A DNA stretch of 64,000 nucleotides from Pseudalkalibacillus salsuginis (GTDB taxonomy: Bacteria > Bacillota > Bacilli > Bacillales > Fictibacillaceae), in the NCBI RefSeq assembly GCF_021646685.1, contig NZ_JAKJHW010000007.1:1-64000 (forward strand). The letters run 5' to 3'. Shown piece by piece: positions 6,980-62,018 of this stretch. Every line of letters begins with the position of its first letter. Position 1 is the stretch's first letter. The notes beneath the pieces were generated by a model that was given only the letters and a program-made list of their open reading frames with translations, had not been told where the DNA came from and ran no database searches. A program made the translations under genes and the position numbers.

Positions 6980-7028
6980 ATCTGTTCATTAATAATAGAA
7001 AGAAATCGATAATAACCGAGTAACGATC

Positions 7029-7082
7029 ACTGCCTAAAAGCGTCACGTCCTGTGACAACGGCAGTACTAGCACGTCATGTGC
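7029..7082 (-). other. Two hairpins in the tail of the small transcript
   Basis: The first, GCACATGACGTGC (7082-7070), has arms GCAC/GTGC. The second is nested: ACTGCC/GGCAGT outside (7065-7060 with 7034-7029) and GTCAC/GTGAC inside, with loop AGGAC. Both share the pattern CACANGACGTG. They lie between the small ORF stop and the tandem terminators. Confidence 0.6.
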
Positions 7083-7101
7083 GTCGAAAATTCACCGCTA
7101 A

Positions 7102-14645: not shown

Positions 14646-14740
14646 TCTTTCGGTAACTGGCTGGCTTAGTGCAAGTGCACCTTAGCCCCTGTAGTTTTGC
14701 GCCGCTGGTTTTCACCAGTTTTGCCTTTATCGAAATTCAG
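14646..14740 (-). promoter_or_regulatory. GEMM-I riboswitch (cyclic di-GMP-I class) controlling the Tad operon
   Basis: On the - strand the order matches the GEMM-I consensus: AAAGGCAAA, P2 hairpin CTGGT-GAAA-ACCAG with a GNRA tetraloop, GGCGCAAAACTACAGGGGC, CTAAGG, a P3 arm GTGCA-CTT-GCAC..., then AAGCCAGCCAGTTACCGA. P1 is TTTCG (14735-14731) with CGAAA. GEMM-I RNAs bind c-di-GMP; a few variants prefer cGAMP, decided by one core base that I cannot number safely here. It is followed by a terminator with a complementary loop. Distance to the first start codon is about 80 bases. Confidence 0.88.
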
Positions 14741-21761: not shown

Positions 21762-22379
21762 TCATTCCTTCAAATATCCACTTTCCACTGCATCTTCAAT
21801 GATAGCTTGTGCATATTCCCAAAGTGCCTCTGAACCTTCCGCGATTGTTCCATTTCGTTTCATAACCTGCTCTTTGATGATATTATGCTTTTTCCAAGCA
21901 ACGCCTTCAGTCGCGAAGTTGAGAAGCATCGGGTGCAATCGGTCCAAGGCGGCTGCAAATCTTGCCTCTGGAGACTCCCTCTCCTCAAATTCTCTCCAAA
22001 GCGCATAGATCATGTCCGCTTGATCATCTGGTAAAATCGAGAAGATGCGCTCTGCTGCCTGCTCTTCCCTTTCTTCCTTATCTTCATATCCCTTTTCATC
22101 ATACGCAAAGGTGTCCCCTGCGTCGATTTCGACTAAGTCATGAATGAGCAGCATCTTGATGACATGCAAGGTGTCAATACCCTTCTCGTTCGCGTACTCA
22201 TCTAAAATCAGCGCCATCACCGCTAAATGCCACGAATGTTCAGCATCATTCTCTTGCCGGTCTCCACCTGTAATATGAGTCTGTCTCAAAATATTTTTCA
22301 ACTTATCGATTTCAATGATGAACCCCATCTGTTGCTGCAAACGATTGATATCCAAAACCGTTTCCCCCTTGTCTCTCAT
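21762..22379 (-). CDS. HD-domain hydrolase (YfbR-like)
   Basis: A 205-residue HD-superfamily phosphohydrolase. Metal ligands: H in DAEHSWHLA, the HD pair in LLIHDLVEIDAGD and the distal Asp in AAALDRLHPM. The order matches the YfbR/HDDC2 type, which act as 5'-deoxynucleotidases; substrate inferred only. Start uncertain: ATG 22379 lacks a good site, while TTG 22355 has AAGGGGG nine bases upstream (MDINRLQQQ). It follows the peroxiredoxin gene by 14 bases, so they may be cotranscribed. Confidence 0.8.
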   Translation of the reverse strand: MRDKGETVLDINRLQQQMGFIIEIDKLKNILRQTHITGGDRQENDAEHSWHLAVMALILDEYANEKGIDTLHVIKMLLIHDLVEIDAGDTFAYDEKGYEDKEEREEQAAERIFSILPDDQADMIYALWREFEERESPEARFAAALDRLHPMLLNFATEGVAWKKHNIIKEQVMKRNGTIAEGSEALWEYAQAIIEDAVESGYLKE

Positions 22380-22392
22380 TTACACTTTTAAA

Positions 22393-22863
22393 TTATACAC
22401 AAAGATGCTTGCAATGAGAAAAGACATCGAGGTATTGATCACGGTCATTTGCATCGAATTTCGTGTTTTTATAGCGGAGAATCCCCTCTTTGTCCACAAG
22501 AAAGACCGATCGTTTTGCTGTCTGCTTCTCCTCGTCCAATACACCATAATCCCTTACTGTTTTTTTGAACCAATCTGACAAAAGCGGATAAGGCAACGTT
22601 CCAAGGCTTGCAGCAAAAACATTGTGAGCGTAGATATGATCAACACTGATGGCAAGAAGCTCGGTGTCAGTATTCTGAAATTCTTTGAAATCCTCTTTCC
22701 AAGAGGTGATTTCCTTAATTCATCCAGGGGTGAAATCCAACGGGTAAAACGCGACTAAGACATGCTTCTTCCCTTTGAATTGAGATAAGCTGATTTTTTC
22801 ACCGGTCGTCGAAGACAGATTGAAATCCGGTGCAGCTTGCCCAACTTCCAATGGTGTGCCCAT
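22393..22863 (-). CDS. Peroxiredoxin (AhpC/TSA) with in-frame TGA at the peroxidatic Cys; candidate selenoprotein
   Basis: ATG 22863, behind AAAGGAGGTTCTATCGA, opens MGTPLEVGQAAPDFNLSS. The frame meets TGA at codon 48 (22722-22720) and then continues 108 codons without another stop: KEITSWKEDF, ELLAISVDH, LPYPLLSDW, SVFLVDKEG. The context FYPLDFTPG-[TGA]-IKE is the place where the family has its peroxidatic Cys (TPxC). A hairpin directly after the TGA fits bacterial SECIS rules. Two readings: a selenocysteine peroxiredoxin, or a gene inactivated by one base change (TGC/TGT to TGA). The remainder shows no decay. A Cys pair ends the protein (HCKHLC). A weak sigma-B-like pair GTTTAG-N14-GGGATA lies at 22928-22903. 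Confidence 0.8.
22687..22713 (-). promoter_or_regulatory. SECIS-like hairpin after the in-frame TGA
   Basis: Read on the - strand from the seventh base after the TGA: GAAAT, bulge CA, CCTCT, loop TGGAA, AGAGG, ATTTC. Both stems are perfect 5-bp helices. The apical loop begins 19 bases after the TGA and has G at its second position. Bacterial SECIS models ask for a loop 16-37 bases downstream with a G in the first two positions. Confidence 0.5.
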
Positions 22864-23038
22864 TCGATAGAACCTCCTTTTTAAACAACGTTACCTTTAA
22901 AGTATCCCTATTATTCACAGCTCTAAACATTTGATTTTATGTTCGTACAGGACATTGGACCCTCCTCCAAAGTACTAAACGCCAAGAATAAATCGTCTAA
23001 ATATAGAATGAAAATTTTGTGAAGGAAAGTGAATGGAG

Positions 23039-35849: not shown

Positions 35850-36145
35850 AATCCCCGCCCGAAGACAATTGTCTAAGGACGGGGATCGATTCCCGTGGTA
35901 CCACCTTTTTTCACTGACCGTTCACACGATCAGCCTCATGAAGTACGGAGTGATCGACTGCACACTCTTATACTCTGGCATTTTTAACGGACGCCAAACC
36001 CCGTCACAGCTTACTGGTGCACACGCAGCACGTTCAAAGTGAGATTCAAAGGCCATTTTCAATTCGCCGTTCAACACTTCTTTTCAGAATACCGAAGCTC
36101 TCTATGGATAAACGCACGAACCTACTTTCCTCATCAAAATCGGTA
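35850..36145 (-). promoter_or_regulatory. T-box riboswitch (Met specifier) of metG
   Basis: On the - strand: stem I begins around GATGAGGAAAGTAGG; the specifier region GAATTGAAAATGGCC offers ATG, a methionine codon; the T-box sequence GGTGGTACCACGGG lies at about 35902-35889; the terminator stem ATCCCCGTCC/GGGCGGGGAT with T6 ends near 35850. Uncharged tRNA-Met would pair and favour the antiterminator. A TATAAT lies upstream near 36150. Confidence 0.93.
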
Positions 36146-36252
36146 ACATTATATTTTTCGTTATTATTACAGAATAGTGTGAAAATGTAAAGTGGGTTTT
36201 TGCTGAGTCTTTACCTCAAAAGACTTACCTGAGTACCTCGTCTTTCGAATAA

Positions 36253-49443: not shown

Positions 49444-49486
49444 CGGTTGGATGATAGAATCGGTCCATAGTCGTTATGTAACCCTA

Positions 49487-49584
49487 ACCACCACTTCCCT
49501 ACGCTGGTGTAAACCAGATCAGGTTCCAAGGGTCTTAAAGCTATACTTTAATCTCAGCCTTTACGAGAAGGCCCCCCTAGTGGA
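49487..49584 (-). promoter_or_regulatory. TPP riboswitch (THI element) of the thi operon
   Basis: On the - strand: CTAGGGGGGCC, CGTAAAGGCTGAGA (the CTGAGA box), ACCCTTGGAACCTGATCTGG, TTTACACCAGCGTAGGGAAGTGG. All conserved THI-box parts are in order. With TPP bound, the downstream terminator should form and stop tenA-thiE transcription. Confidence 0.96.
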
Positions 49585-49696
49585 TCGTCTTATATAGTTA
49601 TTTTCGATGTAATCGTAACATGTATAACTGAAAAGTCAAATGATTTCAATCGGAAAATCGCTTTAGGAGTGATTTTTCATCTATCGATTTAGGAGC

Positions 49697-61792: not shown

Positions 61793-62018
61793 GATAAATT
61801 ACCTCTTCCTAAGTTTTATAATTAGAAAGTGGTCGGTTGCACTACTAGCTCCTCCGTATCCAAGTGCCCAAATAAAGATCCGAATTCACAGCTCCCTCTA
61901 TATTCCATTTGTATTATACCGTTCCAACATCAGGATGTTCATGATTCCAATTTCCTTATATATACATTTCTTCACTAGTTCTTATTTCTCATTATAAAAA
62001 AGGTCGCTCGGCTTGGGA

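Follow-up and report, generated by a model that had tools for sequence, protein, structure and literature searches.

Selenocysteine (Sec)-containing peroxiredoxins (Prx; PF00578, motif PxxxTxxU) are listed among the experimentally verified selenoprotein families (PMC13188914). An earlier note on this DNA states that such enzymes are known from other bacteria. The bacterial SECIS model given in the same source comprises a loop of 3-9 nt, a stem of 4-16 bp, a G in the first two loop positions, a distance of 16-37 nt from the UGA and a folding energy of -7.5 kcal/mol or lower (PMC13188914). Three selenoproteins were counted in Bacillales in a 2006 survey, a table of which displays a trend to fewer selenoproteins at higher oxygen (PMC1794560). 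We found no published report of the peroxiredoxin family described here in the open-access PMC literature. For comparison, a genus sample of eight Pseudalkalibacillus genomes, which includes the assembly containing the window (G000), and an order sample, a draw of 397 genomes from the order taken as Bacillales, were analyzed. A total of 38 loci of the peroxiredoxin family, 8 from the genus and 30 others, were used in the comparisons.

The gene is located on the reverse strand (22393..22863) of the window, i.e. the whole 64,000-nucleotide stretch of Pseudalkalibacillus salsuginis DNA that was analyzed. A ribosome-binding site (AAGGAGG, 22873..22879, reverse strand) precedes it. The frame runs from ATG at 22863 to TAA at 22393 and contains a single TGA (22720..22722) as codon 48, after which 108 codons follow; the predicted product has 156 residues with Sec at position 48, in the context PLDFTPG-U. 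The positions given for frame and TGA in the earlier note all hold. Its assignment of the TGA to the site of the catalytic (peroxidatic) Cys was confirmed by a Pfam AhpC-TSA match of the read-through protein (119.9 bits against a cut-off of 26, E 8e-35) and by the presence of TGA at the same column in 38/38 orthologous loci. The 108 codons beyond the TGA were described in the note as family-like; this rear part is under purifying selection (see below). As predicted, plain ORF calling yielded only the rear 67 codons, the ORF list containing just a 67-aa piece at 22393-22596. UGA is a normal stop elsewhere in the window, where it terminates 16 of 45 mechanically called ORFs of at least 200 aa. 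An ORF of 205 aa (21762..22379, reverse strand), HD-domain-like and named by eye, lies downstream and adjoins the peroxiredoxin gene in all eight genus loci.

The deduced protein shares with known Sec-peroxiredoxins the domain, the Sec position, the presence of one Sec and the PxxxTxxU motif, in which Thr45 is invariant (38/38) and Pro41 is present in 33/38 loci; Arg118 is likewise invariant (38/38). It differs from them in belonging to a clade in which no Cys form was seen and in scoring below the NCBIfam PrxU cut-off (76.7 of 270 bits). Two members of the family were scanned against NCBIfam, and neither exceeded any cut-off. The AlphaFold model had a pLDDT of 93.9. AhpE (Rv2238c), a 1-Cys enzyme of Mycobacterium tuberculosis, was the best sequence match in the PDB and also matched the model in structure (Foldseek TM 0.90/0.91, 36% identity); plant PrxA, Bcp4 and a Burkholderia enzyme ranked slightly better by Foldseek E-value. 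Like AhpE, the family lacks a universally conserved second Cys. In contrast to AhpE, Sec replaces Cys, and 26/38 orthologues possess Cys151 (22413-22411 in the window); together with Cys155 (22401-22399, 7/38 orthologues), this residue forms a pair of possible, non-universal resolving thiols at 22399..22413 on the reverse strand. Cys paralogues in the same genomes, which we take to be BCP/PrxQ-like, are similar in fold and in their TPGC site but are only 38-41% identical, carry Cys at the active site and have another Cys five residues further along (CTTEAC). The redoxin domain-containing protein WP_332309485.1, encoded on plasmid NZ_CP019641.1 of Planococcus lenghuensis, is 60.7% identical, has TGA in the same place and is annotated in RefSeq as a single CDS across the TGA; it differs in being plasmid-borne, and selenium is absent from its product name. 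A gene of Microcystis phage MaAM05 (MW495066.1, 40607-41005) is annotated as prxU, selenocysteine-containing peroxiredoxin.

Orthologues were present in 8/8 genus genomes; the other seven were 76-97% identical to the window protein, and TGA occurred at the same column throughout. The order-wide search, in which at most nine candidates per genome were scored and a match was accepted at E <= 1e-26, gave 53 matches in 48/397 genomes. Every match had TGA at the aligned position. Thirty-two of them, each in a different genome (32/397, 14 genera), belonged to the family of the window, and 21 to a second family, DWTPV-U. A Cys form at the site was not found at this threshold among the 397 genomes. 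Cys orthologues should have scored well, given that Cys occupied this position in the query. The homologue alignment proposed in the earlier note thus shows the UGA kept in 38/38 loci, with no replacement by TGC or TGT among the orthologues. In one orthologue (L012, from G006), a TGA cuts the C-terminal CxxxC at its second Cys position.

Nonsynonymous substitution was low on both sides of the TGA. Between G000 and G007, dN was 0.038 before the TGA and 0.032 after it, with dS of 0.89 and 1.03, respectively; against the nearest species, dN was 0.008-0.019. The largest contrast between the two parts was obtained with G003 (0.231 before, 0.150 after), and for the more distant species dS was large or saturated. 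From these substitution patterns it is deduced that purifying selection acts on the codons behind the TGA as it does on those in front, and low dN on both sides points to translation of the rear part in frame with the front. At the synonymous level, the three scorable hairpin codons had an entropy of 0.3 as compared with a mean of 1.4, and 0/46 other columns were as low; codon +3, located in the lower helix, was also invariant. Columns with fewer than 34 sequences or with less than 90% of one residue were dropped from these analyses, and locus L013 entered without its front part.

The earlier note had described a hairpin of two perfect 5-bp helices directly downstream of the UGA (22687..22713, reverse strand). 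The structure is present as described, with the lower 5-bp helix and a CA bulge below the core. The core (22692..22706) consists of the upper helix CCUCU/AGAGG, 5 bp long or 6 bp with a U-A pair inside the loop, and the loop UGGAA (22701-22697), which begins 19 nt past the UGA and has G at position 2, exactly as had been noted. The upper helix was paired in all 38 sequences (36 distinct), in two of them via a G-U pair. Double compensatory changes at two of its pairs were observed in L183 and L187; since these loci are from the same genus, they may represent one event. The lower helix was not conserved: one of its pairs (columns 11-35) forms in 8/36 distinct sequences, and this helix is probably dispensable. 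The loop was invariant across the orthologues, but it overlaps a conserved Trp codon, so that its invariance alone is weak proof. A perfect upper helix arose in 2.6% of 100,000 random synonymous encodings, and the 39-nt fold was equally stable in 2.2% of 4,000 such encodings. The energy of the hairpin alone was ordinary (z -0.75; 51/200 dinucleotide shuffles as good), and Rfam returned no SECIS match. The claim that the hairpin lies within published SECIS limits stood for loop size, stem, position of the G and spacing from the UGA. As for energy, the window sequence folds at -8.3 kcal/mol (39 nt) or -9.4 kcal/mol (49 nt), whereas the 39-nt stretch of most orthologues, at about -6 to -7 kcal/mol, fell short of the stability that the model demands. 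The case for the hairpin as a SECIS element is, as judged from the alignment, one of comparison and not of folding energy.

The earlier note had regarded a genome without selA, selB or tRNA-Sec as evidence against a selenoprotein, and taken at face value the G000 assembly, rated 99.63% complete, gave this result: there was no match to selA, and those to selB, selD and tRNA-Sec all lay below the cut-off. Of the nine below-cut-off tRNA-Sec matches, five were scanned; these proved to be tRNA-Ser, -Gly or -Arg and were discarded. The seven other genus genomes all contained selA and tRNA-Sec over the cut-off, and ARAGORN identified tRNA-Sec with anticodon UCA in 8/8 of their loci. The selD gene has its own in-frame TGA in 7/7 genus genomes. 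In G003, G004, G006 and G007, whose sel clusters were read far enough, selB was present and the gene order was acnA, selA, selD, phosphonate-type ABC transporter, glycosyltransferase, selB. The acnA gene was confirmed by NCBIfam; the transporter and the glycosyltransferase were named by eye and perhaps serve selenium uptake or storage. The shorter loci of G001 and G005 showed acnA, selA and selD, and in G002 acnA fell outside the locus read. A recombinase was seen near tRNA-Sec in three of four sel clusters (L090/L091, i.e. G004:C81:274-285 kb, L093, L228 and L229). G004 has a second selA/selB/tRNA-Sec set (L094, on contig C89), which shares 48-54% identity with the first and lacks selD within the 16 kb read; it is perhaps a contamination, G004 being rated 5% contaminated.

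The absence from G000 is not confined to the sel genes: the chromosomal region in which the relatives carry them next to acnA is lacking as well, together with its neighbours. For the 257-310.5 kb part of G004:C81, which contains acnA, the sel genes and a LexA-like gene, no syntenic match was seen in G000 among the best 40 of 59, 63 and 321 matches that were scored. The transketolase-like gene of this stretch had just a 68% match, on contig C17, and AcnA had matches of only 28-38% identity in G000 as compared with 90-95% among the relatives. Contig C3 of G000 tracks C81 from 55 to ~138.7 kb, at its tips and in its interior, nearly all at 94-96% identity, and ends in a 99-base repeat that is common to the tips of C16 and C19. 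C81 is collinear with 2.03-2.2 Mb of the closed G006 chromosome. Contig C16 approaches from the opposite direction and reaches as far as glnA (2.0246 Mb of G006); lexA of G006 follows at 2.0279 Mb (names by eye). Beyond glnA, C16 continues for ~31 kb without a match in the G006 stretches read and then ends. This island (L271-L272, G000:C16:272-303.7 kb) has recombinase-like ORFs, recognized by eye, at 280-284 kb, and G006 has lexA 3 kb on. The gap-facing tips of C3 and C16 have no sequence in common with each other. The ~165 kb that extend from lexA to 138.7 kb of C81 are unaccounted for between C3 and C16, the 257-310.5 kb part having been searched for in the whole of G000. That a contig breaks off at a repeat is not enough to tell a gap from a deletion; the arrangement suggests that the assembly more probably lacks a contig, bordered by repeat and island DNA, than that the strain has undergone a real deletion.

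Were the deletion real, it would have removed the Sec machinery of the strain and left an orphan gene that gives a 47-residue stub and is heading for decay. The lack of any Sec gene over the cut-off in an assembly of such rated completeness fits this reading, and the repeat at the end of C3, shared with C16 and C19, could together with the island on C16 reflect a repeat-mediated deletion. However, the same event would also have taken acnA and, as named by eye, the LexA-like and transketolase-like genes, the facing tips of C3 and C16 do not share sequence, and the reading frame is intact, with the low dN against the nearest species given above. We regard an orphan gene as improbable, though it is the likeliest of the alternatives. 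An entire Sec locus can be missing from a genome rated >99% complete, and the lack of machinery in an assembly is therefore a weak refutation.

A suppressor tRNA or a leaky stop could also carry ribosomes past the UGA, the hairpin then being there by chance. This agrees with the failure to see Sec genes in G000 and with the ordinary energy of the hairpin relative to shuffled sequences, but it leaves unexplained the conservation of the upper helix with its double changes, the Sec genes of the relatives, the many window ORFs that UGA terminates and the placement of the UGA at precisely the catalytic position; we consider it very unlikely. Least credible of all is a pseudogene or a sequencing error, i.e. 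an ordinary Cys peroxiredoxin interrupted by one nonsense base. There is only one stop codon, and the plain ORF list does split the gene, but TGA recurs in 38/38 loci from separate assemblies, no Cys form came up at E <= 1e-26 in 397 genomes, and purifying selection acts past the TGA. This explanation is refuted by the conservation of the TGA and the selection after it. The selenoprotein candidate put forward in the earlier note is thus supported by the TGA in every orthologue, the preserved upper helix, the purifying selection on the rear part and the occurrence of selA and tRNA-Sec in 7/8 genus genomes. Judged from genomic sequence, the gene very probably encodes a selenocysteine-containing peroxiredoxin in which UGA 48 is decoded as Sec via the conserved hairpin, with the machinery encoded in the missing stretch.

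In the mechanism that we propose, SelB with Sec-tRNA(Sec), supplied by machinery presumably encoded on the chromosome stretch absent from the assembly, would bind the hairpin and bring about the incorporation of Sec at the UGA. Thr45 and Arg118, both invariant, would hold the selenolate, which would attack peroxides and be converted to selenenic acid. Because no second Cys is universal among the 38 orthologues, the selenenic acid is more likely reduced by an external thiol in a 1-Sec cycle corresponding to the 1-Cys cycle. Mycothiol is not known as the thiol of Bacillales; bacillithiol and bacilliredoxin are its counterparts there. The reductant is perhaps bacillithiol or bacilliredoxin, or the C-terminal Cys where present. 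If selenium or the Sec machinery were lacking, translation would stop after 47 residues.

A sigma-B-like site (22904-22928, reverse strand) lies upstream of the peroxiredoxin gene and is conserved in G000, G004 and G007. It was seen in 21/38 loci, 12 of them from one genus, with a pattern that was loosened after the first look. The window also contains c-di-GMP-I and c-di-GMP-II riboswitches (14649-14735 and 61822-61905), a T-box (35872-36146), a TPP riboswitch (49479-49588) and a Bacillaceae-1 RNA (7018-7083).

Further candidate Sec-peroxiredoxins were encountered. The second family (L207-L227, DWTPV-U-GAQMPSYEDD) accounted for its 21 matches in 19/397 order genomes, all with TGA; one member was scanned and exceeded no NCBIfam cut-off. 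A third, AhpC-like family (L034-L038 and L230, DFTFV-U-PTELAAV) was present in 6/8 genus genomes and was not seen in G000 or G004; the one member scanned reached a PrxU score of 170.5 of 270. Two distant relatives, L057 and L058, have a stop shortly before a Cys (M*PFC and Y*PSC) and are perhaps UxxC selenoproteins.

As far as the genomes compared allow it to be placed, the peroxiredoxin of the window represents a new branch of the known Sec-peroxiredoxins that occurs in many related bacilli and is apparently Sec-only. These Bacillales lead an aerobic life. On balance we favor the view that AhpE-like 1-Sec peroxiredoxins forming a Sec-only clade have become widespread among them, accompanied by the two further Sec-peroxiredoxin families. 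If this is true, such a clade would run counter to the oxygen trend tabulated in the 2006 survey (PMC1794560). Plain ORF calling cuts short the members of a clade found in 32/397 genomes of the order. A family without a Cys form would provide a direct test of the advantage of Sec over Cys in a peroxiredoxin.
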